From: Xestospongia bergquistia
Lineage: Eukaryota > Porifera > Demospongiae > Haplosclerida > Petrosiidae
Direction: 5' to 3'
Assembly: GCA_963965975.1 (NCBI GenBank)
Contig: OZ014416.1
Span: 3,286,001 to 3,350,000, forward strand
DNA length: 64,000 nucleotides
The translations under genes and the position numbers were made by a program. Below, piece after piece: positions 2,431-59,770 of this stretch (position 1 is its first letter; each line of letters opens with the position of its first letter). The notes under the pieces are model-generated. The model worked only from the letters and a program-made list of their open reading frames with translations. It had not been told where the DNA came from and did not search any database.

Positions 2431-3920
2431 ATGCGTGAGATTGTTCATTTACAAGCTGGCCAATGTGGCAACCAGATTGGATCTAAAGTAACTTACTTAA
2501 AATTTTAATAAATATACATAAGTTTTCTTCTTCCAAAGTTCTGGGAAGTTATTTCTGATGAACATGGTATTGACTCAACTGGAACATATATTGGTAATTC
2601 TGACCTGGAACTACAACGTATTAATGTATACTACAATGAGGCTACTGGTGGTAAATATGTACCTAGAGCTATACTAGTTGATTTAGAGCCTGGGACAATG
2701 GACTCTGTTCGATCAGGACCATTTGGTCAACTTTTTCGTCCAGACAACATTATATTTGGTATGTTCTAAAACTTAAAGATTATAACAATTTCATATGCTA
2801 AATTCAGGTCAAAATGGAGCTGGCAACAACTGGGCTAAAGGCCATTATACTGATGGAGCTGATTTAATGGAATCTGTTATGGATGTTATTAGGACAGAAG
2901 CTGAAAAGTGTGACTGTCTTCAAGGCTTCCAGCTCGCCCATTCCATCGGTGGTGGTACAGGTTCGGGTATGGGAACACTCCTTATTTCCAAAATTCGTGA
3001 AGAGTATCCAGATAGAATGATGAGCACTTTCAGTGTCATGCCATCTCCTAAAGTCTCTAATTCTGTAGTTGAACCTTATAATGCCACACTCTCCGTCCAT
3101 CAGCTTGTTGAGAATACTGACATGACTTTCTGCATTGACAACGAAGCTCTTTATAATATTTGTTCCCATACTCTTAAATTGACATCTCCTACATATGCTG
3201 ATCTCAACCATCTTGTTTCAGTTACTATGAGTGGTGTCACTACCTGTCTGCGATTTCCTGGTCAACTTAATGCCGACTTGCGCAAGCTTGCTGTTAACAC
3301 AATCCCTTTCCCACGCCTTCATTTTTTCATGCCTGGTTTTGCTCCTCTAACTAGCCGTGAGTCACAGCAGTACCGTGTCTTGACAGTCCCTGAACTGACC
3401 CAGCAAATGTTTGATGCTAAGAACATGATGACAGATTGTGACCCTCGCCATGGGCGTTACCTTACAGTAGCTGCCATTTTTCGTGGACGAATGTCCACGA
3501 AGGAAGTTGACGAACAAATACTTAATATGCAGAACAAAAACAGCTCCTATTTTGTAGAGTGGATCCCGAACAATGTCAAGACTGCTGTTTGTGATGTTGC
3601 TTCTCGTGGTACAAAGATGTCTGCTACCTTTATTGGCAACAATACTGCTATTCAGGAGGTTTTTAAGCGTATAGGTGAGCAATTTCTTGCAATGTTTCGA
3701 CGCAAGGCTTACTTGCATTGGTATACTAATGAAGGGATGGATGATATGGAATTCACTGAGGTAAGTGTAACATATGTCTGTATACTAATAATATACGTTT
3801 TCTCCTTAGGCTGAGTCCAATATGAATGACTTGGTATCTGAGTACCAACAATACCAAGATTTAAATGTTGATGATAATGATGAAAAAGGAGATGATCCAG
3901 AGATGGAAGAAGTGGCCTAA
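2431..3920 (+). CDS. TUBB: Beta-tubulin, four exons, complete
   Basis: This encodes beta-tubulin, the GTP-hydrolysing partner of alpha-tubulin in microtubules. The exons are 2431-2487, 2539-2758, 2808-3760 and 3810-3920, all with GT-AG introns of 49-51 bp. The total is 1341 nt, or 446 residues plus stop, which is the normal family length. The start is fixed by [21 protein letters not shown] is the tetrapeptide known in animals to mediate co-translational autoregulation of tubulin mRNA. The tubulin signature GGGTGSGMG is in exon 3, and the C-terminal tail is acidic and ends PEMEEVA. Exon 3 carries most of the protein, so an internal ATG at 2795 is not the true start. No lesion is seen, and it appears to be an ordinary functional gene. 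The exact isotype cannot be assigned from this sequence alone. Confidence 0.97.
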
Positions 3921-5411: not shown

Positions 5412-5922
5412 CTAATTTAACTTAACGTATGTCAAACAATTCTGAGGAAAATAATCTAACTGCTTAAAGTAACGACAATCATGTAGCTTGATAAAGTCTA
5501 TAAAATAAGAAGGTAGTCCTTCATAAGGTATACAGTACTTCACTACAGCATTAGCTGCTATACAATAGAGAGATAAAGAAAGGTGTGGAAACATAAAACT
5601 TTGTATGATGGAACCTTTGATTTGACTATGTCACTGAACAATGTCAGGCCTTTACTGTTTGTTGTGTCTACATGAGCATCATATTCCAATAATATCCTTG
5701 TAACTTCCTCTATCCTTTCAACTTTGTATGCATTAACTGCCTTTTTAAAAGCAACTTGAAGTAAAGTTCTTCCATCCCATCCAACATCATTTACTACAGC
5801 ATCACCTCCTACTTCAAGGAGATGACACAGTAGTGAAGGGTATCGGTAAATGAAAATAGTGTTAGACAAAAGTAATTCTAATCCTTCTGGATAATAAAGA
5901 AAGCTTAAAACAAATTTTTTGG
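5412..5922 (-). pseudogene. FEM1-like C-terminal exon (minus copy), frameshifted
   Basis: Read on the minus strand from an acceptor ending at 5923, this exon encodes ankyrin-type segments (LLEVGGDAVVNDVGWDGRTL, then ILLEYDAHVDTTNSKGLTLF). They are followed by YCIAANAVVKYCIPYEG and FIKLH. That end resembles the FEM1 family C-terminus, where animal FEM1A/B/C have a cysteine-rich 'LQCLAARA', then 'IPYKG', then 'LH'. FEM1 proteins are substrate receptors of CUL2 ubiquitin ligases that read C-terminal degrons. Compared with the paralogous copy at 26621-27100, this copy has lost one base between the SKVPSYK segment and the cysteine segment, so the frame breaks. Upstream FEM1 ankyrin repeats are absent from the window. 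It is preceded (minus sense) by an R array. The FEM1 assignment is from memory of family motifs. Confidence 0.68.
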
Positions 5923-5989
5923 CTAAAGAGATTAACTCAAAAGGAAAAGAGAAGTAGTAGATTCACAGCTCTTTATCCCCATGGAAAAC

Positions 5990-7020
5990 AATAGTAATAC
6001 CTGACGTTTGTCATCTGGTACATGAGATCATCACTACCAGTCATCATTTGTCCATCCTATTAAATAGTTCATTCAGTAGAAAATTGTACTATTTGATTAG
6101 ATCATAAATCTATTAGAGTGACAAAAGGGTCAGTAGTATCGTACTTATAGCATAGTATAAGTATTATGATACAACTATCATCATTCCCAAGCACTCAACT
6201 AGAACATCGCCTAGAGAATAAAAACAACTGCAGAATAAAAATGGGCAGTTAGAATTAATGATATATTAAAATCAATCTTACATAGAGTTGTTATTAGAGA
6301 CCTACACTACATCATCTCCAGTCTAGTCATCAAAGTATCACTATAGAATACAAGGAGTTTAGTACAAAATTGTCAAAATTAATGAGAGATCAAACTTACA
6401 GTCTAAAAAGTTATTGAGAAACCTTTACATCATGTATTCCTACACACTAGATCAAAATTCAGCTAAAAATTAAAACACATGTTTAATATAGAACTGTCCA
6501 CATTATTATAACTTACAGTAGTTATCACATCAGATCAAAGCTTATTCAGTAGACAATTATATTATTTAATAACTCAATTTATAGAAAGTGTCTACAAATG
6601 TTATCAGATCATTTCTTACTAAAAGTAACAGAATGTTTTGTTCTAACATTATAGTTACTATACAACTCACAACCACTAGAACATTATATCATTACACTAC
6701 AGAACAAATAGTTAGTAAATTAGTAATTTAATAATAGATATGACTTACATATATAGTATATATTATAGGACTATACTAGATCTAGATCATCACATGTTGA
6801 TGTAGAGTAAATTACTATTATAATAGAAGAGAACAAACAGTAAAAACATTTATTTAATATAAGTGTTCTATTAACTTACTAGAAGTAGGACAATCATCTC
6901 CAATATATCAGTAAACAGACCTATTCTACTCTATCCTAAAAGAAGGTATCATTTAAATTGTTGAGTTTATAACTCTCAATTAGTTGATGATCATCTCCAG
7001 TAGAAAACAGTCCTACTATA
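5990..7020 (-). other. R array 4: exon-like, stop-rich segments (minus)
   Basis: On the minus strand this repeats the layout described at 20427-21310. Short segments begin after TAG and end at GTAAG, with candidate introns around 55-65 bp and a TTTACTAACT branch-like motif before CTGTAG. Most junctions are conserved, though some donors differ. The array ends in ACAAACGTCAG followed by GTATTA and leads to the acceptor of the FEM1-like exon at 5922. No open frame crosses it. See the finding at 20427. Confidence 0.65.
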
Positions 7021-7104: not shown

Positions 7105-8711
7105 ACTCTGTCCGAGTTGAGAAAAGCCACCCAGACGTGTGAATAACTTTGCCGTTTTACGTGCTATCCACATGGGACTTGCACCAATCGATTCAGCTTG
7201 CAAACGCGCATTATATATATAAAATTTGGCTCTCTAGCGCTACGAGAAAGTACCAAACTATAAAACTCCATACATTTTGAATGGCATACCTTTCGCATAC
7301 TTTAAATTGCACACCTTCGAGCAGATAACAAAAATCGATTTTCACCTCGAAAAGTCAGTCGACTATCACCGAGAAGCCAGCCGACTATCACGTGGCAAGT
7401 CAAAATTACAATTCTAATTATACGAATAAATGCCTTTGTATCAATTGTTACTATTAAAATAATAACCAGGTATCGTCTTTTGCGATTTTGGGCAGCTATA
7501 AAGCCACCATGGTTTTGAAAAAAACTTTTTGACAAAAAAGGAAAACTGAAAATGTCTAAAATTATTCGTCATCAGAACTGTCAGATTGATCGGAATCATC
7601 AGACTCATCCGATTCATCGCCAACTCGAATGATGAACTCATCCACTAGCTCCTCATAGAGGCCATCATTAGACCAATAGTGGTCTTCAAAGTGGATCTTA
7701 ACATGTTGAATGAGGCTCTTCCAACAGTCAGGTGTCACAACATCAAAACCCTTCCATGCCAGCTGCTCTACCTCACGGAGATTAAACATCTGAGTATTGG
7801 CCTTTATGTGACCTTTAACCTGTGCCCATGCCAACTCAATTGGATTGAGAGTGCAGTGAGCAACAGGCAGCCAGACAAACTAATGACCTGTATGATGTAC
7901 ATATCTATAAATAAAATATTATCTTGACTGAGTACTTACTTACCAGTGGCAGAAGCCATGTCATCAACAACACAGCGAGGGGTGGGTTTCAATCTTTGTA
8001 TGATGCTATACAATTCAGATTTCAAGGCATTTCTTGGGAATTCAATTCCCTTTGCCTGAAGCCAATCTTGCATCTTTTTTTTTTGTCCAACTTTTGACAG
8101 GGACAGGGTCACTACGACAACTATGATATGTGGCATTATCCATGACAATAAGACTATTAGCTGGAACATTTGGGAGAAGTTTGGTAGCAAACCACTCCTC
8201 AAAATGATCAGCAGTCATCTCATCATGGTAATCACCAGTATTTTTTTGGATCTGACCGCGAAAGAGGTTATCCTCTTTCAATTCAACAAGCAACTTGGAC
8301 AGTGTCACATGTTGTTTTGTCTGATAAAGGTGGTATATTTTTCGTCTGATGGCTTCACGATCAAAATCATCAACTAACAGGCGTCTGGAGACTGAGTATC
8401 TCTTCGTTGGACTAGTGAAGGCAGCTCCCCCTGTGTCAACTTTCTCCTTCCGTATCTTTTTGAGTCCATTTGTGCCTGCCAAGTTCCTTGAACTATTCAT
8501 AGACATTCACAGCAACCTCCTTTGTTTGTGATCGCAATCTTTTTCCACTTGGCATGTTTACAAGCACGAGAAAAAATGTGGTGTGTTCGCATGACATCCA
8601 CATGAACAAATAATGAATACACTTAACACGTACTTCAGCGCTAACAGGCGAGGAAATACCTCACCTTACATTCCATGCATAAAACACCTTTTTTGTAATA
8701 AGGGGCTTATC
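7105..8711 (-). mobile_element. Insertion carrying a degenerate DDE transposase
   Basis: The flanks on both sides (to about 7104 and from about 8712) match adjoining sequence at 20270-20350. The interior therefore looks like an insertion into the inverted arm, replacing roughly two dozen bases. It carries the transposase remnant at 7562-8555. I could not find matching terminal inverted repeats or a clear target duplication at the apparent ends, so the exact limits are approximate. Confidence 0.55.
7562..8555 (-). pseudogene. DDE-superfamily transposase (Tc1/mariner-like), internally deleted
   Basis: On the minus strand the frame starts MPSGKRLRSQTKEVAVNVYE and soon hits a TAG. It continues in another frame with KKIRKEKVDTGGAAFTSP and DDFDREAIRRKIYHLYQTKQ, then GDYHDEMTADHFEEWF and the catalytic-strand motif SLIVMDNATYHS. 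A frame change falls at an A8 run (8077-8084), after which MQDWLQAKGIEFP follows. Near a possible small intron (about 7876-7940) come VAHCTLNPIELAWAQVKGHI and an acidic C-terminus. This order fits the metazoan IS630/Tc1-like 'DDE_3' endonucleases. The N-terminal helix-turn-helix and the central part holding the first catalytic Asp are missing compared with what I remember of the family, so it cannot be an active enzyme. It is a plain DNA transposon remnant with at least two frameshift or stop lesions. Confidence 0.75.
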
Positions 8712-9612: not shown

Positions 9613-9624
9613 ATTAATGTACAT

Positions 9625-10170
9625 AAGGTCATCATTACCAGTAACATTAACCTTTCTATCCTATTATAAAACATTGAGGTTCATTTAGTAGACATTGCAT
9701 TATATAATAATTCAACTTACAGTAGGTATGTTAACAAATGTTATCAGATCATCTCTTATTAGTATATTGATAGACCTACTAAATGTAACAGAAATTGTTT
9801 TGTTCTAACATTATAGTTACTATACAACTCACAACCATTAGAACCTTATATCATTACACTACAGAACAAGTAGTTAGTAAATTAGTAATTTGATAATAGA
9901 TATGACTTACATATATAGTATATCATAGGACTATACTAGATGTAGATCATCACATGTTGATGTAGAATAAATTACTATTATAATAGAAGAGAATAAATAG
10001 TAAAACAATTATTTAATAAGTGTTTCTATTAACTTACTAGAAGAAAAACACTCATCTCTAATAGATCAGCAAACAGACCTGTTCTATCCTAAATGTAGGT
10101 ATTATTTAAATTGAGTTTATAACTCTCAATTAGTTGATGATCATCTCCAGTAGAAAACAGTCCTACTAAA
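9625..10170 (-). other. R array 5, truncated (minus)
   Basis: Read on the minus strand this carries the first few exon-like segments and GTAAG/TAG junctions of the R array. It stops within the GGTTAATGTTACTGGTAATG segment, where it abuts the 157-bp satellite. The later segments and the GAT repeat are missing. Confidence 0.6.
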
Positions 10171-14763: not shown

Positions 14764-16081
14764 CTCTTAATGAACTGGGTTCTAATAATTCCAAAACATT
14801 TTTAATGTTATCTGACCTTTTGTGTCTTCCAAACTACTCACTTATCTCATTTACCACTGTGCTTACATTTACATTGTGTCATCTTCTATATGTAATGTCA
14901 GCAAAAGGTTACAGCAGCTGTACTTGTCATTGTGGACAAGGCTTAACTCAATTATATCACAAAGGTGTGAATGTTAAATAGTATTGTTTTAGTATGAAAT
15001 AAAAATAAATGTAAAAATAAACATCTGGTTGATTTCGATGTCTTTTATGACAAATTTTATAAATTTCAGATTTGTATACATTTCAAAGTGCCAGATACTA
15101 TAATTTTAACCCCTTATAAAACTTGCTAATTACATGTACAGTATTTTAATGTTAAATTATACATATGATATCTAGGTTGTGGGTGTAGACAGATAATGCC
15201 CTACGGCCTGCCAATCAAAAGACACACCCACCCTATACCCATCAAAATCTCGTCGAAGATCCATTAATTGTGTTAAGATGTGATACTCGTGTTTTCAGGT
15301 ATATGGGTGAGACTAATTCTCATAAATTGAAGTTTGTTATTTTATTACAGATGTCCTGCAGTCTTTGAAATCTTTTTAAGAATTTTAGCAGCTTACTCAT
15401 CAGCTTCTCACGTGTGGCTATTAGAACACACTCACATTCTTAATTGTGCAACCATAGCAATGCCAACAACATTTTCAGGTATCTAATTCCTTGTCTCACT
15501 CCCATACTGTCCAGTCTTATTCACATACTGGATGTTCTAATCTCATACCATACAGTTTCACTCCCATACTGTATGGTATGAGAATACTTTTCAGCGTATT
15601 TATTCTAATTTCCAATAATTCATCTCATGTTACTCTAGGTTAACAATTGAATGGGCAAGAGAGGGAGGAGTTCAGAATTGCACTAACAACTACTCAAGAG
15701 AGTAGCATGACACAATTATTATTAGAAATATGTCTACCTAATGAACAAGATAAAAAAAGTAACAGATCAATAAATTGAACGCTAATGATGAATTTATCTG
15801 TCACATAGGATGCAGCTGTCTTTGGTCCTCTTGTTAGCGTCTCTTCGAAAAATTCACTGTTTAGTTTATTCATATCTTTATCAGGTTTGGAGAGAGAGAG
15901 AGAGTGATAATATTGTCATTATGATCACAGGTTTTCATCTGAACCCAGTATTGTCAAACTAATCCATTCTCAAGGCTATCCTCCACAATTATTACCATTA
16001 ATGGTGTCTAATGTTCCATCAATGCATATTGTGATGAACTTTATGTCTGATCTCCTGGCTCAACCTCAGCTAGTCATATAA
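14764..16081 (+). pseudogene. INTS2: INTS2 (Integrator subunit 2) 3' region, copy 1, broken
   Basis: Integrator subunit 2 belongs to the nuclear complex that processes snRNA 3' ends and attenuates transcription. The exon-like pieces start at 14764, 15176, 15351, 15639 and about 15932. They encode DPLIVLRCDTRVFR, CPAVFEIFLRILAAYSSASH, EEFRIALTTTQES, QLLLEICLPNEQDK and LIHSQGYPPQLLPLMVSNVP, then SMHIVMNFMSDLLAQPQL. They match in order the human INTS2 stretches around DPLIVLRCDQRVHRC, ILLEICLPTEEEK and LVHFQGYPCELLPL. The frame is lost near 14893, a TAG interrupts LWV-TDNALRP near 15185, a TAA opens the exon at 15639, and the reading ends after QPQLVI, short of the family C-terminus. Introns are kept, so this is DNA-level duplication, not retroposition. 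Copies lie at 53073 and, for one exon, at 25347. Confidence 0.85.
15490..15595 (+). repeat. Short CCATACTGT minisatellite in INTS2 intron, copy 1
   Basis: A few units of a CTCCCATACTGT-type repeat. The homologous intron in the second copy (53797-54055) holds a much longer version, so the array length changed after duplication. Confidence 0.7.
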
Positions 16082-16227
16082 TTAATATAATTATGATTGT
16101 TATATTAATGCCAATAAATATAACATAAAATGTATTATATGAGTGGTGAGAGATGGTGGAATTAATTGGCATTTCAGCTGATGCCTGTCAACCAGAATAA
16201 TGAGTAATGAATAATAGTAATGGCGAT

Positions 16228-16495
16228 ATGATAACGTTGGATCTGTAATGATCCTTGTATCAACAACTGATATGTATGACACATACCAGTTGTTTGACCC
16301 AAACTACAATGATAGATGTGACCATGAGCCCATACAGCAGAAAGCTCAAGGTACCTCATGTTTTTACTGGCTTTCGATATGATTACTTGTTGTATGCTAT
16401 ATGAATGGGTAGATATTGATTGTGTGCATGAATTGAGGACTATAATAAGGTTGTCTTACAATTCTTTCTTTCTATAGCACCTGTAATTCAACAGG
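16228..16495 (+). pseudogene. Unrecognised ORF, copy 1 (frameshifted)
   Basis: Encodes ILVSTTDMYDTYQLFDPNYN, then DRCDHEPIQQKAQ. Compared with the second copy at 54717 it lacks one T in the run before CTGGCTTTCGATATG and carries ACTGG where the other has ACAGG, so the frame closes. I do not recognise the family. It lies just downstream of INTS2 sequence but does not resemble the INTS2 C-terminus. Confidence 0.45.
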
Positions 16496-16905
16496 TACGT
16501 ATGCTAAATTGAAGAGTACTTTTAGTATATAAAAAGTTAGTGTACATGATGCATATTGTTGCAATTATATTATAATTATGGTAATTAACACTAAATTGTC
16601 ATAAAGAATGAAAACTATCTACTAATCCAAGTGAAGTTTCCCTCCACATCCTCCTGCTCTGCCCACTCAAACACAAACAGAACCTATCTGATATAGTTTA
16701 TAATTATTTGGATATTAACATCTATGATAATGCATTAGTGTTCAAGATTGTACTGATGAAATTATACCTAGTTCTTAATGTATTAGCATCACTTTGCATC
16801 GTTACAAACAAAATAAATGACAATGTACTGACAGATAGAATATGTCTTTTATCGTCAGTTTATTTTTACTATGATTTTATCACGCATTCTTATCTGTACC
16901 CAATG
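16496..16905. other. Unit spacer
   Basis: AT-rich spacer nearly identical to 54965-55385. A 67-codon frame at 16708-16911 is disrupted in the other copy by a small insertion, so I do not call it a gene. Confidence 0.5.
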
Positions 16906-16974
16906 AACTGAGCATGCTCAGTTTAACATGCTGCTTTAATGACGCCAGTTTTAGTTAACTGAGCATGGTCAGTT
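16906..16974. promoter_or_regulatory. Pair of 18-bp palindromes, copy 1
   Basis: AACTGAGCATGCTCAGTT at 16906-16923 is a perfect palindrome. A second copy at 16957-16974 differs by one base. The core TGAGCATGCTCA resembles the palindromic NRF1-type TGCGCATGCGCA. The pair lies 5' of a possible short first exon (ATG at 17052, donor at 17069). Calling it a promoter element is inference. Confidence 0.4.
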
Positions 16975-18179
16975 CAACAGACCGCTAAAGTGACACCAAT
17001 TTTTAGTCCTAATAATACTATGCATTAGGTGGACCGCCTCATTTCTGCAAGATGACTGTGCCTATTGGGTAAGTCCTGCTGCAGGACCGATGTGTTTTAC
17101 TCTAATGCAGAAAAACGTTACAGTCAACTCGAGGGCAACTACAGCATATACGTTTTGTTCCAGCACATACACAAGCTGAGAAAGTATTCAGGTCAAAGTA
17201 AACGTACGCCATGTGTTGTGGAAAGCCTAATTCAGATATTCTAGCTTTGTTTGGCACAACAGTTGCTGTTGTTTCTACTTTTCTTATCACTTGAGACCCT
17301 TTGATCTGTTGAGGCAGCCTAATTCTATAATAGTATATTATCAAAAAAAAGTTTAGTTCTACCTCAGTTTAAGTCAATATTCAGTTGGACTATTCAGTGT
17401 AGCACCAATCCGAGGTAGTGTGTACAGAAAGCTGTTATATTGATTAGATGGAGTAAAGAGTTTTGCTGTCCTAAACACAACTAAAATGGCTAGTAAAAAT
17501 CTCTCCCAGATAAATTGTGAGTACTGAGTAACTGTTTCGTGAATGCTATAGCTGACGATAAGCACAGAGCTTTTAAGTTGGCAGGTCCTGGCATCTAGCT
17601 TTCTTCTTGGTTGTAGCTTATAACCACAGTCTAGCTAATGAGAAGTCATCTTGTTAACTATAATTATTAACGGAGCCTCCCTGCTAAGTACATGAACTCT
17701 GTGGGTTCAATAGTCTAATTATAGAATATGTTCACAACCCTGTTGTGATGTTTTGGTGTGTAATACATGTCGACTGAATAGTTAGAGTACAAGTCTTGTA
17801 TGTATTAATAATTGTAGTTTGTGCAAGCTTTTGAGACCAACTTTTAAAAGTAACCTTAATTTAACATATTAATAATTTCTATTGTACATTTTTATAATAG
17901 ACACTTTACAGAGTTTTAGATGTCTTGTCACTTTGGCCTTATATAGTACCATCATATCGTGTAGAAACTAAATCATTCCAATGTCTAATTATCCAAGTCT
18001 TGTTGTGTTAAGTGACCATTATACTATCTATTGTTGTGTTATATAAAGCAAGTGTTATAACTCTTGTAATCAACATTGCATATACGTGGCTTATTCTTTG
18101 TTAATCCATTTACATACGCACACGTTTTGGTAATCCTATCACAGTATGACATCCAACCTCTTGTAAGTCGTATAGACCT
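16975..18179. other. Unit interior, no assigned gene
   Basis: Nearly identical to 55455-56880. Compared with that copy, two segments of roughly 110 bp are absent here (near 17100 and near 17600). Minus-strand frames at 17102-17344 and 17374-17565 are not preserved in the other copy. A possible start and donor (ATGACTGTGCCTATTGG then GTAAG at 17069) is kept in both copies, but I find no matching downstream exon. Confidence 0.45.
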
Positions 18180-18960
18180 ATAACATGTACATTCAGATAC
18201 AGTTGTAACTTCCTTTCTTTTAATTTATGGTAATAAACCTAGTCCTGTGACATGTACATATATAAACATTTTGACATATTCATACACAAATGTTTTGGTA
18301 CTCGTACCACATTATGTCCTGTGATACAACCTAGTTCTGTGACATGTACATATACAAACCTTTTGACATATTCATACACAAATGTCTTGTTACTAGTTCT
18401 GTGGCACATTCTCTTACAATATGGTATAACCTTGTCTCTGACATTTACATGTTTGAATGTCTAATTACCCATACCACATGTCCTATTATACAACCCAATA
18501 CATACAAATGTTTAATACCCAAACTTTTGTAGTACATACAACCACATAATCTTATGTAACCTAGCCCTGTGACATGTGTGTACACAAACATTTTGACATA
18601 TCTGTACATAAATATCTTGTTACTCATACCCACATTATATCCTATGATACAACCTAGTCCTGTGACACACACATATACAATTTTTTTGACATATTTATGC
18701 ACAAATATCTTCTCACTCATACCACATTATGTCCTATGATACAACCTAGTCCTGTGACATGCATATATGAAACCTTTTGTGACCATTATGATGCAATTTA
18801 ATCCTGTGACATGTTCTTATCAAATAATGTCCTACATTATGGTATAAACTCACCCTATGACATGTACATGTATGGATGTCTTGTTGTACAACCATATAAT
18901 GTCCTATTATTTCAATTTAATATATACAAATGTCTCAACACCAACAACCTCCTTTAATAC
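18180..18960 (+). repeat. 92-bp satellite, array in unit copy 1
   Basis: Degenerate tandem units with CCTAGTCCTGTGACATGTAC, TTTTGACATATTCATACAC and CCACATTATGTCCTATGATA in order. Open frames across it are repeats of the same unit and not genes. It is longer than the copy at 56880-57530. Confidence 0.88.
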
Positions 18961-19649
18961 AACCTAGCGAGTGTCATATACATACACTGCTAACACTTTG
19001 GCATATTCATAGACAATGTCTTGTTACTCAAAACCTGTTTTCTAACAAAGCTTTTGTGACTTGGAACTCTAAAACTACAATACTTTTTGTAAATCTCATA
19101 TTCACACTAAATCTGCTAGTGTCTACAAGTTTACTGGTAGAATCTAATTTGGTTCTTGTTACTTACTGTTCAATGTAACTCCTGTGTTGATCTCTTGTTG
19201 CCATCTACTGTGGCTGTTATAACTCTTGAGTTTTGTTACTATACAAGTTCTATCTTGTGTTAATATCTCTTGTGACTGTCAACACTCTTATACTTGATCT
19301 GACATTTTGTTTAGTTCTCTATTTTATCTTTAACATCCATCTCCTGCAGCTGCTCTATAACACTTTGTATGATGTTATATTATTGTCTGTACCCTACATT
19401 CGTTAGTTTTTCAGTACTTTTGTAGACTAAAGATGTTCTATTGTTTTCTTGATATATCGTACATAATATAGTCTTGTAGTGTATGACCCACAGAGTTCAT
19501 GTCTTGTAGTGTATGACTCACAGAGTTCATGTACCGTAATATTTCCTCTTCCTCTTGCTATTCTTGTTTCCTGTTGTCTTGTTGTGTTTGTTGTATATTA
19601 TTCCTACATATTCCAACATTATCAAAGAGGTTTTCTACCAGATAATGCT
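18961..19649 (+). other. Spacer with short direct repeat
   Basis: Matches 57515-58200. CTTGTAGTGTATGACCCACA and a near copy (GACTCACA) lie in tandem at 19474-19530. Part of it is found inverted at 10791-11039. I see no gene. Confidence 0.55.
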
Positions 19650-20240
19650 AGCATCAGTATTTTTTTACTGGTGTCTATAATTTTACTTGAGTTCTCTTAC
19701 TGGTATCTAAAATTTTACTTCAATTTTTTTACTGACATCTGTAATTTTACTCCAGTTCTTTTATTGACATTTCTATATTCCAGTTCTCTTATTGGCATCT
19801 AAAATTTTACTTCAGTTCTTTTACTGAGATCTATAATTTTACTCCAGTTCTTTTATTGACATCTCTATACTCCAGTTCTCTAAATGGCATATAAAATTTT
19901 ACTTCCGTATTTTTTACTGGCATCTAAAAAGTTACTTTAGTTTTTTTCCTGGCATCTAAAAATTTACTTAACTATTTTTTACTGGCATCTAAAAATTTAC
20001 TACAGCATTTTTACTAGCATCTAGAATTTTACTTAAGTCTTTTTTACTGGCATCTAAAAATTTACTACAGTATTTTTTACTGGAATCTAAAAATTTACTA
20101 CAGTATTTTTTACTGGCATCTTGAATTTTACTTCAGTATTTTTTACTGTCATCTAAAAATTTACTTCAGTATATTTTACTGCCATCTAAAATTTACTACA
20201 GTATTTCTTGATGGCATCTAAAAATTTATATCAGTTTGGC
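19650..20240 (+). repeat. 33-bp minisatellite, unit copy 1
   Basis: Tandem units with TTTTTACTGGCATCTAAAAA and TTTACTACAGTA. It immediately precedes the R array, as it does at 58200 and (inverted) at 10260-10790. Confidence 0.88.
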
Positions 20241-20426
20241 ATTTAGAATTTTAGGTTAGGTTTTATAGCAGATGTCTATGAAATCTAAACTCTTCTCTTT
20301 ATCCCAGATAACTGACATGGACTGTTGTACACTAGAATTACAAGTAATTTTAATATACAAGACTCTTATCAATTTATAATAATAATTATTACTGCTCTGT
20401 CATAATAACTATTTTTCATTTTATAG

Positions 20427-21310
20427 TAGGACTGTTTTCTACTGGAGATGATCATCAACTAATTAGGAGTTGTAAACTCATTTTAAATAATACCTACTTT
20501 TAGGATAGAATTGGTCTGTTTGCTGATCTATTAGAGATGAGTGTTTTTCTTCTAGTAAGTTAATAGAAACACTTATTAAATAATTGTTTTTACTATTTAT
20601 TCTCTTCTATTATAATAGTAATTTACTCTGCATCAACATGTGATGATCTACATCTAGTATAGTCCTATAATATACTATATATGTAAGTCATATCTATTAT
20701 TAAATTACTACATTTACTAACTATTTGTTCTGTAGTGTAATGATATAATGTTCTAATGGTTGTGAGTTGTATAGTAACTATAATTTTAGAAAAAAAACAA
20801 TTTCTGTTACATTTAGTAGGTCTATCAATATACTAATAAGAGATGATCTGATAACACTTGTTAACATACCTACTGTAAGTTGAATTATTAAATAATGCAA
20901 TGTCTACTAAATAAACCTCAATATTTTATAATAGGATAGAAAGGTTAATGTTACTGGTAATGATGACCTTATGTACATTAACTTATGATTAATGTAAGTT
21001 ATCTGTTATAATAATATGGACATTACTTTACTAAACATGTATTTTTTATAATTTTTAGATAGACTTTGGTCTATTATATAGGTGTATGGTTTTCTGATAA
21101 CTTAGACTGTAAGTTTGATGTGTCATTAACTTATCAATGATGTACTAAACTATTTCCTTTAATTCTATAGTGATACTTTCATGACTAGACTGGAGATGAT
21201 GCAGTGATGTTCTCTAATAACCACTCTATGTAAGATTGATCTTTATTATACCTTTTTGTTAATTCTATTTAACGTTTCATTCTGTAGTGATGTTCAAGTT
21301 GAGTGTACCT
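20427..21310 (+). other. R array 1: six candidate introns between stop-rich segments
   Basis: Candidate exons are 20427-20554, 20619-20682, 20736-20874, 20935-20993, 21059-21108 and 21171-21229, with the next from 21288. The intervening 53-65 bp pieces all begin GTAAG and end in TAG (the last CTGTAG). Several hold ACTAA-type branch motifs, such as TACTAAC at 20715-20721. The six complete segments are closed by stops in all three forward frames. Most carry a GATGAT-type core. The layout therefore fits a spliced non-coding RNA or untranslated exons made by exon duplication. Whether it is transcribed is unknown. Confidence 0.7.
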
Positions 21311-21512
21311 CAACTTGTGGAGATGATGAATTAGATGATGAATGAGATGATGAATGAGATAATGATGGAGATGATGATGGAGATGGAGATGGTGGTGATG
21401 ATGATTGAGATGGTGATGGAGATAATGATTGAGTTGGTAATGGAGATGATGATGGAGATGGAGATGGTGGTGATGATGATGATTGAGATGGTGATGGAGA
21501 TAATGGTTGTAT
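21311..21512 (+). repeat. GAT/GGA-rich low-complexity repeat, copy 1
   Basis: Built from GATGATGGAGATGGAGATGG units. The open frame of mostly Met and Glu across it is a by-product of the repeat. It follows directly on the last R-array acceptor, so it could be the start of a terminal exon. Confidence 0.85.
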
Positions 21513-22084
21513 ATTAATAGTTACATTATATATAGTACAATTATAAACTGTTTTGGTCTCCTTTAATTTTTTTATCTACTACTAACACTGTGTGGACATC
21601 AATAATTGTTTATGGGCCTGGAAAAATATTCAACATTGTTGGTTGCGGCTTTTATCTTGGTTCTTGAGGTTGGCAGTCTTTGTGTGTTGAGTATATGGTC
21701 AGGGATCAGTGTGTGAGTTGTGCATATTGACATCATAATGTGACTATAGGTAGTTGATGAGTCTGGGGTATTAATAGATGGATTTGGACATGGAACCACA
21801 GTTTGTATGTTATTTTGTTATTACTTTCTAATATTGTATCCTCCACCTTGTCTTGTGGCACCTCACATCTCATTGATCTTTGTCTTTTGTCAGTTTTTTG
21901 TATCTATATATAAACTATCCCTGTATAACCTTCTAGGTCTTATTGATGCATAACAGTGACTCTTTCTCTTGATATTAAACCTGATGTCAGACTCTTCCAT
22001 ATTTATTTTAATCTCTTTGTGTGTGTCTGTTACAATGTCATAACGTTCTCCCTTTGTATTGTGTAATCCCCTTGTGTGTGTCAT
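21513..22084. other. Unit spacer after GAT repeat
   Basis: Almost identical to 59968-60540, including a 66-codon minus-strand frame (21599-21799) that is unchanged in both copies. Identity reflects recent duplication, so it is not evidence of coding. Confidence 0.5.
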
Positions 22085-22364: not shown

Positions 22365-24288
22365 TTAGTAGTCCTCTCTACTGTGTCCTAATATGACTAT
22401 CCTATATACTGTCTTCTAAAGTAACTGTCCTATCTATTGCGTTCTAATGTAACTGTCTATCAACTATGACCTAATATAACTGTCTCATCTACCGTGTTCT
22501 AATGCAACTGTCCTGTCTACTGTGTCCTAATATAACTGTTCTGTCTACTGTGTCCTAATGTAAGAGTGCTATCTACTGTGTACTAATGTAACTGTCTCAT
22601 CTACTGTGTTTTAATGTAACTGTCCCATCTACTGTGTTCTAATATAACTGTCCCATCTAATGTGTTCTAATGTATTTGTCCTATCTACTGTGTCCTAATG
22701 TAATGTTCCCATTTATTTTGTAACTGTTCTATCTACTGTGTCCTATTGTAACTGCCCCATCTACTGTGTTCTAATATAACTCTTCTGTCTCATGTACCCT
22801 AATGTAACTGTCCTATGTATTGTGTCCTATAGTAACTGTCCCAACTACTGTGTTATAATATAACTTTCCAGTTTATTGTGTCCACTAACGTAATCGTCCC
22901 CTCTACTGTATTCTAACATAACTGTCTCATCTTCTGTGTTCTAATGTTAACTATCTAATCTACTGTGTCCTAATGTAACCAACTACTGTGTCCTAAGGTA
23001 ACTGTCTTATCTATTGTGTCCTATAGTAACTGTCCCATCTATTGTGTTCTAGTGTGTTCTAATATAACTCTCCAGTCTATTGTATCCTAATGTAACTGTC
23101 CAATCTACTGTGTCCTACCGTAATTGTCCAATCTACTGTTATCTATCCAATCCACTGTGTCCTAATGTGACTGTCCAACTACTGTGTCCTAAGGTAACTG
23201 TCCTATCTATTGTGTCCTATAGTAACTGTCCAATCTACTCTGTTCTAATACAACTCTTTGGTCTATTGTGTCGTAATGTAACTGTCCCATCTACTGTGTT
23301 CTAACGTAATTGTCCCATCTACTATATTCTAACATAACTGTCTCATCTGCTGTGTTCTAATGTGACTGTCCAACTACTGTGTCCTAAAGTGACTGTCTTA
23401 TCTATTGTGTCCTTTAGTAACTGTTCCATTTACTGTCTTCTAATATAACTCTCCGGTCTATTGTGTGCTGATGTAATTGTTCATCTACTGTGTTCTAACC
23501 TAATTGTCCCATCTACTGTATTCTAACATAACTGTCTCATCTACTGTGTTCTAATGTAACTTTTCAATCTACTGTGTCCTAAGTGACTGTCTTATCTATT
23601 GTGTCCTTTAGTAACTGTCCCATTTACTGTCTTCTAATATAACTCTCCGGTCTATTGTGTCCTGATGTAATTGTTCATCTACTGTGTTCTAACCTAATTG
23701 TCCCATGTATTGTATTCTAACATAACTGTATCATCTACTGTGTGCTAACGTAATCGTCCCATCTACTGTATTCTAACATAACTATCACATCTACTCTGTT
23801 CTAATGTAACTATTCAATCTATGGCATCCTAATGTGACTGTCCAACTACTGTGTCCTAAAGTAACTGTCCTATGTATTTTGTCATAACGTAATTGTCCCA
23901 TCTACTTTATTCTAACATAACTGTCTCATCTACTGTGTTCTAATGTAACTATGCAATGTACTGTGTCCTAGTCTAACTGTGCAATCTAATGTGTCCTAAA
24001 GTAATTGTCCCATCTACTGTGTTCTAATGTAACCGTCCAATCTACTGTGTCTTAATGTAAATTTCCATCTACTGTGTTCAAATGTAACTGTCCTATCTAC
24101 TATGTCCTAATCTAACTGTCTGTTTTAATGTGTCCTAAAGTAATTTTCCCATTTACTGTGTTCTAATGTAACTGTCCTATCTACTGTCTCCTAATGTAAC
24201 TGTTTTATCTACTGTGGCCTGAAGTAATTGTTCCATCTACTGTGTTCTAATGTAACAGTCCTCTCTCCTGCGTCCTAATGTAATCATT
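22365..24288 (+). repeat. 28-bp satellite, array 2
   Basis: The longest of four arrays. It has the same core and orientation as array 1, with internal segmental repeats (for example 23390-23480 against 23585-23680). It bounds unit copy 1 on the right. Confidence 0.95.
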
Positions 24289-25346: not shown

Positions 25347-25516
25347 CTCTTAATAAACTGGGTTCTAATCATTCCAAAGCATTTTTAATGTTATCTCACC
25401 TTTCGTGTCTTCCAAACTCTTCACTTATCTCATTTACTACTGGACTTTCATCTACATTGTGTCATCTTCTACATGATAATGTCAGCAAAATGTTACAGCA
25501 GCTGTACTTGTCATAA
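25347..25516 (+). pseudogene. INTS2: INTS2 single-exon fragment, copy 3
   Basis: Follows an acceptor (CTCATAG) and encodes LNKLGSNHSKAFLMLSHLSC, continuing to LLHDNVSKMLQQLYLS. Unlike copies 1 and 2, the frame is kept through the LQQLYLS segment, which aligns with the human INTS2 region before NKLWMVLNTVMPRRLW. The fragment is cut off at about 25516, where R-array sequence begins, so it cannot make a protein on its own. Confidence 0.65.
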
Positions 25517-25534
25517 TAATACCTTTTTTTAGGA

Positions 25535-26540
25535 TAGAGTTGAATAAGTCTGTTTACTGATCTATTGGAGATGATTGTCCTACTTCTAGTAAGTTAATAG
25601 GAACATTTATTAAATAAATATTTTTACTATTTATTCTCTTCTATTATAATAACAATTTATTCTACATCAACATGTGATGATTTAGATCTAGTATAGTCCT
25701 ATGATATACTATATGTGTAAGTCATATCTATTATTAAATTACTAATTTATTAACTATTTGTTCTGTAGTGTAATAATATAACATTCTAATGGTTGTGAGT
25801 TGTATAGTAACTATAATGTTAGAACGAAACATTCTGTTACATTTAGTTGGTCTATTAATAACTAATAAGAAATGATCTGATAACATTTGTTAACAGTTGA
25901 ATTATTAAATAATATAATCGTCTACTGAATGAACTTTGTTCTATAATTGTAGGATGTACAAGTTAATGGTCATTGTAGTGATGATCTGATGTACATTAAC
26001 TGATGACTACCGTAAGTTATTTAAACGTGTGTTTTTAATTTTTAGCTGAATTTTGATCTACTGTGTAGTACATGATGTAAAGGTTCTTCAATAACTTTTT
26101 AGACTGTAAGTTTGCTCTCTCATTAATTTTGAAAATCTTGTACTAAACTCCTTGTATTCTATAGTGATAGTTTGATGATTAGACTGGAGATGATGTAGTG
26201 AAGTTCTGTAATAACTATTCTATGTAAGATTGATTTTTTATATATCATTAATTCTAACTGCATTTTTATTCTCTAGTTGTTTTTATTCTCTAGTTGATGT
26301 TTTAGTTCAGTGCTGGGAATGATGACAGTTGTATCATAATACTTATACTATGCTATAAGTATGATACTACTGACCCTTTTGTCACTCTAATAGATTTATG
26401 ATCTAATCTACATTAACTGATGACTACTGTTCATTGACTTATTAAGTAATACAATTGTCTACTGAATGAACTATTTAATAGGATGGACAGGTTTAATGAT
26501 CCCTGGTTGTGATGATCTGATGTACTAGATGACAAACGTC
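25535..26540 (+). other. R array 3, leading into FEM1-like exon
   Basis: Same segment and junction layout as 20427-21310. Most donors (GTAAG) and acceptors (TAG) are kept, but one acceptor (TATAATAG elsewhere) reads TATAATAAC here. It ends ACAAACGTCAG followed by GTATTA, then the acceptor CTCATTAG at 26620. Confidence 0.62.
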
Positions 26541-26620
26541 AGGTATTACTATTGTTTTCCATGGGAATAAAGAGCTGTGAATCTACTAATTCTCTTATCC
26601 TTTTGAGTTAATCTCATTAG

Positions 26621-27100
26621 CCAAAGAATTTGTTTTAAGCTTTCTTTATTATCCAGAAGGATGAGAATTACTTTAGTCTTAACTGTGATTTCATTTACCT
26701 ATGCCGTTCACTACTGTGTCTTCTTTTTGAAGTAGGAGGTGATGCTGTAATAAATGTTATTTGGATGGGACGGAAGAACTTCAAGTAGCTCTTAAAAAGG
26801 CAGTTAATGCATACAAAAATTGAAAGAATAGAGGAAATTATAAGGATATTATTGAAATATGGTGCTCATGTAGATGCAACCAACATTAAAGGCCTTACAT
26901 TGTTCAGTGACATAGTTAAATCAAAGGTTCCATCATACAAAGCTTTATATTCTCCACATCTTCCTTTATCTTTCTATTGTATAGCAGCTAATGCTGTAGT
27001 GAAGTACTGTATACCTTATGAAGGACTAACTTCTCATGTTATAGACTTTATGAAGTTACATAATTCTCGTTACTTTAAGCAGTTAAATTATTTTCCTTAA
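26621..27100 (+). pseudogene. FEM1-like C-terminal exon (plus copy)
   Basis: Paralogue of 5412-5922. The second half is open: KIERIEEIIRILLKYGAHVD, ATNIKGLTLFSDIVKSKVPS, then YCIAANAVVKYCIPYEG and FMKLH, ending YFP and a stop. This fits a last ankyrin repeat plus the FEM1 C-terminal cap. The first part, before about 26800, carries several stops and shifts relative to the minus copy, so the exon is damaged at its 5' end while the minus copy is damaged in the middle. No start codon is usable in frame, and the upstream FEM1 ankyrin domain is absent. FEM1 identity is from remembered motifs. Confidence 0.66.
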
Positions 27101-40662: not shown

Positions 40663-43600
40663 TGGCACTGCGAGTATAAGACCTGGATCATGACATACAC
40701 ATTTAGACCGGGTGACTTACTGAAGCTGGACCTCCAAGCTGACTTCAAAGCCTGGAAAGCTCAATGGGACGCGTATCTTAGCCTTTCTGGCCTAGGTGCC
40801 AGAGTGCTGAGAAACAAGTATATGCTCTCACACTATGTATGTCATCAGAAACAGTCACTATAGTCGATAGCCTGGGACTCACCGTGGATCAACGCAAAGA
40901 TGTTAAAGAAATCGTCAAAGCCATCGCTCAATATGTGGAGGGTCAGATATACGAGTCAGTTGCGAGACGCCATTTTTTGCCAGAGGCTGCAACAAGTTAA
41001 CGAACCATTTGACAACTTCCTGGTTAGCCTAAGAGAGCTCTCTAAGACATGTAATTTTTGCTCTGAGGAATGTACGCAAAAGGACATTCGCGCCACATCG
41101 TGGAAGGACTAATAGAAGGAGAAACAGTGGAAGACCTACACAAAGTACAAAATTTAACTTTAGAGGGAACAATTTCTAAATGCCAGGCACTAGAAGCAGC
41201 TAGACAACAGCATGAGGAACTCACACACACACCATTAGGGAACATACTTGTCCACACTGTAAGAAGACCCGCACCACAACGTCCATCCAACACAGCAACC
41301 GCCTGTCCTGGATGTGGCTCTGGTCCTCATCATGGAGGTCATGAGAACTGCCCAGCTTACCATGTTATTTGCCACAATTGTCACAGATTTGGCCATTTTG
41401 CAAGAGTTTGTCGTGCTTGAAGGTAACCATCTCCGGCAGCAGTGACAAACCCCCCTAGTACTAGCACCTTAGTGTTAGACCCACACGTTTACAGTGCTAG
41501 AGAGATAGAACCAGCACCAACACTCGTGGTACACATGTCAACCCCTAATGGGCATACTAGCGTCAGTGTCCTCCCAGATTCAGGAGCTGAGATCTCTGTT
41601 GCTGGCCACAGGCTCTTGACATTATTACAGGAACATTCACATAATTTACTTTCATCATCAATGGCCCCACGGGCGGTCAATGGACAATCCATGCATTCAC
41701 TCGGGAGACTGCCAGTCACACTTGGACTAGGAGACCGCACTATCGTCGAAGATTTCCACAGTTATATCGAAGTGTCAATGACCATTATCTCCTGGAAGAC
41801 ATCAAAGTACCTGAGTATACTACCTGAACACTACCCCCAGCCAACACCACCACCTATGGTGACACTAATCAAATCCATGCCCCCTAACGACATCAGAGCT
41901 GAGTTCCCCCAAGTCTTTGATGGTCAGATTAAAACTATGGAAGGTGAACTCTTTCACATCGCTCTGATGGCCGAAGCAAAACCCTTCTGTGTACACGCCC
42001 TTCATACAATACCGTACACCTTTCGTGACTGATTGAAAGCTGAATTAGAACTATTACAGGAACAGAACGTTATTGCACCAGTTTCCGAACTAACCAAATA
42101 GTGCGCCCCCATCGTGGTAGCACCCAGAAAAGGAACAGATAAGATAAGAATGTGTGTCGACCTCTCACACCTAAACAAATACGTCAAGCGTGAAAGGTAC
42201 CAATGTCCCACTCCCGCTCAGGCTGTTGCTGACATTGCCTCAGAAAACGCACAAGTGTTCACTAAATTTGATGCCCTCAAAGGATATCACCAATGCCCTC
42301 TGGATGAAGAGAGTCAACTCCTTACGACATTCATTACTCCATTTGGTCGGTTCAAGTACTTACGAACACCATACGGCATATCGTCTATATCAGAACACTA
42401 CAACTGGCGGATGGATGAAGCCTTTGCAGGATTGACAGGATACTGATGAATTGTAGATGATGTCATCATCTATGATAGTGACAAAACCAAGCACAGAGAG
42501 CACGTCTGTCAGTTCCTTCAAAGGTGTGCCGAACATAAGATTACACTGAATCAAGATAAGTGGGAGTACGTAGTAATTATATCCCATTATCTTTGAAGAC
42601 AAAGATAATGGGATATAATTTCTATGCCGAGTGGGTTAAAGGAAACCTTAACCATGCTCCAGATGCCCTATCCAGAAACCCTGTCAGTGAGCCACAACTG
42701 GATGAGTTATTAGCTGAGGGCATGTCTTCATCAGCTGAGGTCCAGGCACTGACGAGTGACCTCACCGGCAGCTTGAGAATGTCAGAATTACACCAGACAA
42801 CACAGGAGGATGAAGAATATTAACAACTTAAGCACTATATTCTGACAGGATTTCCTTGACAACAAAACCAATTACCGGAGCGGTGTCGCCGATACTGGAA
42901 CATTCGGAACCAGTTGTTCGTTAACAAGAACTTCATCGTACTTGGGTCTTGGTTGTTAATCCCAGCTAAACTTCGGAAATCAATCTTACACCAGCTCCAC
43001 TCAGCCCACTAGGGATCCACTCGCACCAAACAACGAGCAAAACAAGTTGTCTACTGGCCGGGGATCGATAATGACGTTGACAATATTATTGCAACCTGCA
43101 AACAGTGCCAAGATTCGTTACCATCCCACCCACCAGAACCCATAATGCCTAAGGAGCGACCATCACAATCATTTCAAAAACTAGCCATTGACTTTTGTTC
43201 CTACAGTGGACAGCAATTCCTTATTGCTGTTGCCTGTTGCACAGATTGGCCAGAGATTACGAGCATGGGCAGAGACACCACTACATCTCGTCTCTTAAAT
43301 GCACTACTGGCGATTTTCAGCCGGTATGGCACACCACACATAGTTTGGTCTGATCAAGGACCACAGTTCACATCCCAAGCATTTAACAACTTTTCTCGAA
43401 CCTGTGGCTTTCGACACATCACCTCGTCTCCCACGTATCCACAAAGCAATGGCAAAGCTGAAGCAGCAGTCAAGTCTATGAAGAAACTCATTCCAGGGGC
43501 GTGGACTGGACGTCAGATAGATCACAACAAACTGGCATGGGCCCTTCTACCGTATAGAATTACACCATCACGACGTGATGGAATGTCTCTTGCACAGAGG

Positions 43601-44057
43601 TTACTTGGGCGACCTCTTCAGGACACCATACCAGCACATCAATCGCTGTTCACTCAGGACATACAACCACTCCCGAGGAACAACCCCATGACAGACCCCA
43701 CCAACCAGCGGTATTATAATCAGCAAGCCCACCCCTTGTCTGACATCCAGGTCGGTACTACTGTTGCTGTTCAATGGACATTTATGGGATAGTCTCAAAG
43801 ATTGGCCCATTCCGCCAATATCACATCCAGCTCTCTAATGGGAGAGTACTCTTACGGAACCGTCGATTCATCCATCACCGTGTCACCCCTACACCAGTGA
43901 CTCGTCCTTTGCCGTCACCACCAGTGAATCAGAGGGTACCTCCCACACACATACCACCTCAAGAACCTCGTCGGTCCTCTCGAACACGTCGTCCACCAGT
44001 ACACTACGCTGAGGTATTCGCCTCCTCATAACTTATACAGAGGCACGAAATGGGAGA

Positions 44058-58885: not shown

Positions 58886-59770
58886 TAGGACTGTTTTCTA
58901 CTGGAGATGATCATCAACTAATTAGGAGTTATAAACTCATTTTAAATAATACCTACTTTTAGGATAGAATAGGTCTGTTTGCTGATCTATTAGAGATGAG
59001 TGTTTTTCTTCTAGTAAGTTAATAGAAACACTTATTAAATAATTGTTTTTACTATTTATCTCTTCTATTATAATAGTAATTTACTCTGCATCAACATGTG
59101 ATGATCTACATCTAGTATAGTCCTATAATATACTATATATGTAAGTCATATCTATTATTAAATTACTACACTTACTAACTATTTGTTCTGTAGTGTAATG
59201 ATATAATGTTCTAATGGTTGTGAGTCGTATAGTAACTATAATGTTAGAAAAAAACAAATTCTGTTACATTTAGTAGGTCTATCAATATACTAATAAGAGA
59301 TGATCTGATAACATTTGTTAACATACCTACTGTAAGTTGAATTACTAAATAATGCAATGTCTACTAAATGAACCTCAATGTTTTATAATAGGACAGATAG
59401 GTTAATGTTACTGGTAATGATGACCTTATGTACATTAACTTATGATTAATGTAAGTTATCTGTTATAATAATATGGACATTTCTTTACTAAACATGTATT
59501 TTTTATAATTTTTAGATGGACTTTGGTCTATTATATAGGTGTATGGTTTTCTGATAACTTAGACTGTAAGTTTGATGTGTCATTAACTTAACAATCATGT
59601 ACTAAACTATTTCCTTTAATTCTATAGTGATACTTTCATGACTAGACTGGAGATGATGCAGTGATGTTCTCTAATAACCACTCTATGTAAGATTGATCTT
59701 TATTATACCTTTTGTTAATTCTATTTAACATTTCATTCTGTAGTGATGTTCAAGTTGAGTGTACTTCAAC
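58886..59770 (+). other. R array 2: second full copy of stop-rich exon-like segments
   Basis: All six donor (GTAAG) and acceptor (TAG) pairs of 20427-21310 are conserved in place, ending with CTGTAG at 59743. Scattered substitutions and short indels fall within segments and introns. Confidence 0.7.

Follow-up and report, generated by a model that had tools for sequence, protein, structure and literature searches.

The window analysed here is a stretch of 64,000 nucleotides from the sponge Xestospongia bergquistia (contig C6, positions 3286001-3350000), and the assembly searched comprised 146 Mb in 21 contigs. Between positions 20427 and 21310 of the window lies an array of short segments separated by six intervals that begin GTAAG and end TAG, with lengths of 64, 53, 60, 65, 62 and 58 bp. 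All six had been described in an earlier reading of the letters alone (the sequence-only reading), and all were present at the positions given there. The five complete segments between them measured 64, 139, 59, 50 and 59 bp, in agreement with the range of 50-139 bp first reported. The parts of the array, named for what they resemble, are as follows (all on the forward strand):

20427..20554, +, exon 1-like segment, preceded by acceptor-like TTTTATAG and containing GGAGATGATCATC; start placed by the acceptor-like sequence
Inner TTTTAG ending 20503, +, possible alternative acceptor for the exon 1-like segment
20555..20618, +, intron 1-like, 64 bp, GTAAGT...ATAG, without a strict branch motif
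20619..20682, +, exon 2-like, 64 bp, core TGATGATC
20683..20735, +, intron 2-like, 53 bp, TACTAAC, with the A 15 nt from the end
20736..20874, +, exon 3-like, 139 bp
20875..20934, +, intron 3-like, 60 bp, TACTAAA; homologue of the intron in the 114-bp tandem unit of contig C14
20935..20993, +, exon 4-like, 59 bp, GATGAC core; homologue of the exon in the 114-bp tandem unit
20994..21058, +, intron 4-like, 65 bp, TACTAAA
21059..21108, +, exon 5-like, 50 bp, without a GATGAT core
21109..21170, +, intron 5-like, 62 bp, TACTAAA
21171..21229, +, exon 6-like, 59 bp, core GGAGATGATG; reiterated intron-free on contig C7 (33 cores)
21230..21287, +, intron 6-like, 58 bp, GTAAGA...GTAG, without a strict branch motif
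21288..21520, +, terminal exon-like segment, entering a GATGAT-rich 12-bp tandem repeat (approximately 21318-21509); end undefined

A GATGAT or GATGAC core begins 20-29 nt into exons 1, 2, 4 and 6 and into the 114-bp tandem unit. The exon 3-like segment may contain an additional 43-bp intron (GTAACT...TTTAG, 20774-20816). Six complete segments had been described as closed in all three forward frames; this was correct for five, but the sixth, before the first interval, has no certain start, all of its frames being closed from 20427 and one being open from the TTTTAG ending at 20503. Closure was marginal in two cases, with exon 4 closed in frame 2 by its last codon alone and exon 5 closed in frame 2 by its first codon alone.

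Large tandem repeats lie around the module, with units of 33 bp (19654-20235), 12 bp (21318-21509) and 28 bp (22371-24283, approximately 69 units). Elsewhere in the window, a beta-tubulin-like gene is located at 2512-3814, and the minus strand at 7565-8506 has disrupted frames that look, by eye, like those of a DDE transposase of Tc1/IS630 type. Pieces of a Gypsy-like retroelement occupy 40864-44028 (protease, polymerase and integrase-like, in several broken frames, by eye), and an open frame at 63285-63998, cut by the window end, resembles a Bel-Pao gag-like start by eye and gave no Pfam match above cut-off.

Splice-type signals

The spacing of the splice-type signals was clearly distinct from that of shuffled sequence. 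Within 20427-21310, GTAAG occurs six times (shuffle mean 0.93), each time chained to a TAG at 45-70 bp; the resulting six chained GTAAG-(45-70)-TAG units compare with a mean of 0.39 and a maximum of 4 in 2,000 dinucleotide shuffles, none of which reached six. When the whole window was scanned on both strands with an 884-base frame in 100-base steps, five or six chains were found at 8 of 1,264 positions, all located at the 20427 and 58886 copies of the module. The borders fit the U2 type, with GTAAG in all six introns, GTAAGT in five and TAG in all six. ACTAA-type branch motifs at plausible distance, another feature of the sequence-only reading, were recovered in strict form (TACTAA, 10-30 nt before the intron end) in four of the six introns (shuffle mean 0.14; 0 of 5,000 interior shuffles reached four), the branch A lying 15-24 nt before the end; introns 1 and 6 lack the strict form. 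The TACTAAC pointed out in the second interval is indeed there, its branch A 15 nt from the interval end. Introns and exons also differed in TACTAA density (four in 362 nt versus one in 499 nt), in G+C content (21% versus 29%) and in GATGAY, i.e. GATGAT or GATGAC, of which there were none in introns and five in exons 1-6.

The proposal that one exon-intron module had been duplicated repeatedly was upheld only in part. The intron 3 plus exon 4 unit gave clear matches (z of 7.5 and 10.2) and is the unit tandemly amplified elsewhere in the genome, whereas an origin of all units from one module did not hold, the six intron interiors being weakly alike (z from -0.3 to 3.4 over 15 pairs). These comparisons bear on whether the array could be a plain satellite or degenerate tandem repeat, with a unit that by chance reads GTAAG...TAG and that was never spliced. 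The weak likeness of some introns (z up to 3.4) fits such an origin; a satellite should, however, share its whole unit, whereas the units here are weakly alike beyond donor and acceptor, and the branch motif and the contrasts in composition track the intron borders. We consider a never-spliced satellite improbable.

The introns of the array suit the host genome in size, given an apparent 49-nt intron (GTATGT...TTCAG, by eye) in the beta-tubulin gene of the window and three selected gaps separating neighbouring myosin exon matches, of 46 bp (C4:162184/162231), 44 bp (C10:2032504/2032549) and 59 bp (C9:6175837/6175897), other gaps there being larger.

Copies across the genome

A search of the assembly with the 884-base array produced 132 matches including itself, 24 of which were longer than 770 bases (18 at 87-100% identity and 6 at 81-83%); the longest copies apart from the array itself were 81-98% identical. 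The exon 3 region, searched as part of the spliced exon string, was found at no fewer than 39 separate places, three of them within the window; those listed were on contigs C1, C2, C3, C5, C6, C7, C8, C9, C12, C13 and C14, and further array copies were found on C4 in the 884-base search. Apart from the array at 20427, referred to as module 1, the window contains the following copies:

58886..59764, +, second near-identical copy of module 1, 98%, with six GT-AG pairs intact
9614..10165, -, partial inverted copy of module 1, 96% identical to the first 555 bases
25515..26277, +, module 2, a diverged copy of the array, approximately 80% identical, with some splice sites lost
6227..7015, -, inverted copy of module 2 type

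On C14, three module-1 copies lie 2.33-2.34 kb apart (3717629, 3719962 and 3722302). Ten copy neighbourhoods were compared, and these had several kilobases in common with the window in the form of collinear pieces (window 16068-19653 and 20256-22067, for instance, are shared with C9), mostly 85-98% identical (C2, C3, C6, C9 and C14), the extent of homology varying between copies. This collinear sharing identifies the array as part of a segmental duplication, or dispersed repeat.

A few matches of the spliced exon string to the genome crossed exon junctions; a copy lacking the introns would have been proof that the RNA was spliced. No intron-free retrocopy with exact removal was present among the four junction-crossing places that were read (C2:12053.9k, C2:11984.2k, C3:4984.9k and C13:3158k), all of which were inexact deletions; further junction-crossing matches lie outside these four (for example, C2:11979.3k, C2:13163.9k and C14:3351.1k). 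The retrocopy search neither proves nor disproves splicing.

Tandem forms of the unit

At 5.119-5.124 Mb on C14, the 114-bp unit of intron 3 and exon 4 is repeated in tandem. Anchoring on the exon core, which misses units with an altered core, gave 33 cores (32 units plus exon 3), with GTAAG after all 33 and TAG at the border before each of the 32 anchored units; the uniform GTAAG may stem from homogenisation. In a set of 31 units, defined by a stricter pattern that itself requires donor and acceptor, intron length was 53 or 55 bp and exon length 61 or 62 bp.

At 5.363-5.365 Mb on C7, exon 6 alone is reiterated, in 33 cores spaced 59-61 bp apart in 28 of 32 cases and with no GTAAG between them. 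This exon-only array (locus L042, C7:5363050-5366150) is flanked by intron 5, the acceptor of which is intact and the donor lost, and by intron 6, with donor and acceptor both present; if spliced, the array would constitute a 2-kb exon. Origin as a retrocopy was rejected, and unequal crossing-over is preferred, because the junction does not join exon to exon exactly, and there is intron sequence on either side. The ladder of tandem forms (exon alone, 114-bp exon plus intron, 2.3-kb module) likewise points to unequal crossing-over. Tandem amplification being so common within and near the module (33-, 12- and 28-bp repeats; 114- and 60-bp arrays) also speaks for the plain satellite.

A bolder possibility, to which we give little credence, is that of an 'exon-intron satellite': an RNA gene growing by 114-bp tandem duplication, with more than 30 splice-ready noncoding exons on C14 (5.12 Mb), that would still be spliced and whose mature RNA would be a head-to-tail concatemer of 60-nt GATGAT units. 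The C7 array would then have arrived at a similar concatemer without introns, by multiplying a different exon of the module alone.

FEM1-like ankyrin genes beside the array

Two of the copies in the window adjoin broken genes of ankyrin type:

26550..27098, +, broken, 5'-truncated FEM1-like ankyrin copy, downstream of module 2 (start approximate, by eye)
5415..5962, -, FEM1-like copy adjoining the inverted module, split over two frames (by eye)

The protein match of the former lies at C6:3312711-3312950 and contains one TAG, and a genome search with the protein of the broken copy gave 54 matches. Such matches lie on C14 in sixteen separate open frames, each 667-757 codons long, and fifteen of these form two clusters at approximately 1.78-1.83 Mb and 3.70-3.74 Mb, which represent a lineage expansion. 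The fifteen clustered frames (C14:1776794-1836000 and 3704449-3744459) are intron-free and of about 667-686 codons. Intact FEM1-like proteins are approximately 670 amino acids long; two match Pfam Ank models, and one from C14, compared with solved structures (PDB FEM1B/FEM1C chains), matched FEM1B over residues 55-365 (E 1.3e-18). 'FEM1-like' is used here as a label and not as proof, since generic ankyrins outscore FEM1B via their repeats. NCBIfam returned bacterial ankyrin models alone, far under their cut-offs, as expected from the common ankyrin repeats.

Broken FEM1-like copies are found close to the array on C14, C9, C6 and C5. At 1825.6-1830.3 kb on C14, the order is module 1, GATGAT repeat, module 2, tandem 114-bp units and a FEM1-like 3' part, the last following directly on the 114-bp units and containing an internal stop. 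The joint between array and gene falls inside an exon-like segment (by eye), which fits recombination and not a splice. That intact FEM1-like genes normally have the array as their 5' UTR was rejected, as it is absent from the 1.3 kb upstream of two intact C14 genes. The array was found in three (L029, L035 and L038) of the 12 loci L029-L040, in which the stretches around intact genes stop short of the upstream region.

Selection and decay at the putative splice sites

Twenty-four copies were aligned (18 of module 1, five of module 2, and one trimmed copy that was excluded from rates). Among the 18 module-1 copies, mean substitution levels were 0.0293 over the 48 positions of the splice cores, compared with 0.0338 for exons and 0.0317 for the interiors of introns. 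The splice-core value was close to the mean of circular shifts (0.0327), with 307 of 804 shifts at or below it; for GT and AG alone, 412 of 804 shifts were as low. With gaps counted as well, the core (0.0535) was no lower than elsewhere (0.0521 and 0.0586). Over 23 copies, GT and AG were both retained in 104 of 126 in-span introns (82.5%), and 22 had lost GT or AG; a rough neutral expectation of 70% retention is inflated by differences between modules 1 and 2 and was not relied on. Of 15 module-1 copies remaining after exclusion of short fragments, four (20427, 58886, C9:4289k and C2:12879k) kept all six GT-AG pairs and 11 had lost at least one site, one of the 15 ending before intron 6. The dispersed copies thus look neutral, and constraint on exon structure, as would be expected of present copies of an lncRNA, was not seen in the 18 dispersed module-1 copies.

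The comparison between modules gave a different picture. When the majority state of module 1 was compared with that of module 2, 1 of 47 splice-core positions differed, as against 78 of 711 others (one-sided Fisher p = 0.033), a modest p value in which positions are treated as independent and 26 gap positions, one of them in the core, are set aside. When the two modules were analysed together, the eight-base core was matched or undercut by 28 of 804 circular shifts, and GT and AG alone by 104 of 804, which is not notable. Modest as these statistics are, we read them as suggesting that the splice sites were constrained before dispersal, with no constraint detectable since. The neutral look of the cores among recent copies fits the plain satellite, and the scarcity of core differences between the modules, relative to elsewhere, tells against it.

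The same data bear on whether the array belongs to a functional, now-expressed family of spliced lncRNAs, dispersed copies included, in which the GATGAT exons would act as repeated binding sites. Such a function would accord with the retention of all six GT-AG pairs in both window copies (20427 and 58886), the preservation of splice cores between the older modules, the position of the GATGAT/GATGAC core (starting at 20-29 nt in exons 1, 2, 4 and 6 as well as in the tandem unit) and the 32-unit exon-intron tandem on C14. Against it stand the recent module-1 copies, whose splice cores show no excess conservation and whose exons vary about as much as their introns (0.0338 versus 0.0317), at least one site being lost in 11 of the 15 fuller ones. 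As judged from these sequence comparisons, present function appears unlikely. This reading overlaps the preferred one, that of a decayed, once-spliced transcript, as regards ancestral splicing, and the odds of the two do not sum to one.

Coding potential and RNA families

No reading frame runs through the array, as is expected for a lncRNA. A remnant of a protein with repeated short exons, pseudogenised and yielding GDD-frame peptides (for example, ...STGDD...), was considered on account of open runs in the GAT-GAT frame of the window copy (42 codons after a stop in exon 3, 24 and 17 flanking one stop in exon 1, and 17 in exon 4) and of frames that join exons 2 to 3 and 3 to 4. This frame nevertheless breaks from exon 1 to 2, has at least one stop in each of exons 1, 2, 3, 4 and 6, and would be shifted at every repeat by the 61-nt exon of the 114-bp unit; an excess of variation at third positions was also absent (72, 69 and 53 variable columns by codon phase; p = 0.21). 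On the basis of frame joining, stops and codon-phase counts, a coding ancestry was rejected as very improbable.

The box C of C/D snoRNAs has the consensus RUGAUGA, which the TGATGA-like cores of the array resemble, and a snoRNA array or host gene would also be in line with weak Rfam C/D matches (best 21.6 bits versus a gathering score of 50, E 0.45). No match in 20200-21600 reached the Rfam cut-off, and for this reason snoRNA identity was rejected. The cores are moreover exonic, and the usual intronic snoRNA needs introns longer than the 53-65 bp found here, leaving this the least credible of the readings. No tRNA was found by ARAGORN (bacterial code).

Interpretation

We favour the view, at a probability of roughly 0.68, that the array consists of noncoding exons of a once-spliced transcript, spread by segmental duplication together with broken FEM1-like genes. 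An RNA spliced in the ancestor of the family would have had the segments as its small noncoding exons and the intervals as its minimal GT-AG introns, whether as a long noncoding RNA or as a series of untranslated exons; that such an ancestral RNA was made and spliced is, from its sequence features, quite probable. The array would have grown by unequal crossing-over involving the exon only, the exon with its intron (114 bp) or the whole module (approximately 2.3 kb), and then have become joined to the 3' portion of a FEM1-like ankyrin gene. Array and broken gene would subsequently have been scattered by large segmental duplications, most likely from the FEM1-like cluster on C14. The window copy itself, although its six sites are intact, is probably a relic without selected function, which may be spliced if transcribed. 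The proposal of the sequence-only reading, a spliced noncoding RNA or repeated untranslated exons, is retained as the best reading of the ancestral structure, but it did not foresee a dispersed multi-copy repeat, and it missed the broken FEM1-like genes within the duplications and the lack of detectable splice-site constraint in recent copies.

The accompanying remark that no described family with such a layout was known was too strong, because some lncRNAs do have repeated noncoding exons. One of them is Firre, in which, according to the published account (PMC4820808), a repeating RNA domain (RRD) forms 7 of 13 human and 11 of 23 mouse exons. The likeness lies in a noncoding transcript in which one repeat provides many exons, transcription of the array being a prediction and homology not being claimed; the Firre repeats are mostly at one locus, whereas here introns are of 53-65 bp and the module is spread over many contigs. 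Compared with known repeated noncoding exons, the array differs in its minimal intron size and in its tandem amplification at several scales, and among the papers listed in a literature search none had a title on such an exon-intron layout.

SNHG14/SNORD116, in which tandem noncoding exon-intron units form snoRNA host transcripts, is similar in its tandem units, but carries its snoRNAs in longer introns, whereas the introns of the array are minimal and no Rfam family reached cut-off. Introners, or intron-generating transposons, likewise give rise to many similar short introns; in the array, exon and intron are amplified together, in tandem. With respect to FEM1-type genes, the array on C14 runs straight into the 3' part of one, and it lies outside the coding gene.

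For annotation, arrays of this kind call for caution, since they could yield dozens of gene calls although the examined copies look neutral. If splicing were shown, they would provide a natural series on the multiplication of exon-intron units: a single genome contains exons of the module as single units, in tandem with their intron (114 bp) and in tandem on their own (60 bp), and the minimal introns of the series would allow site strength, length and splicing to be related to one another.
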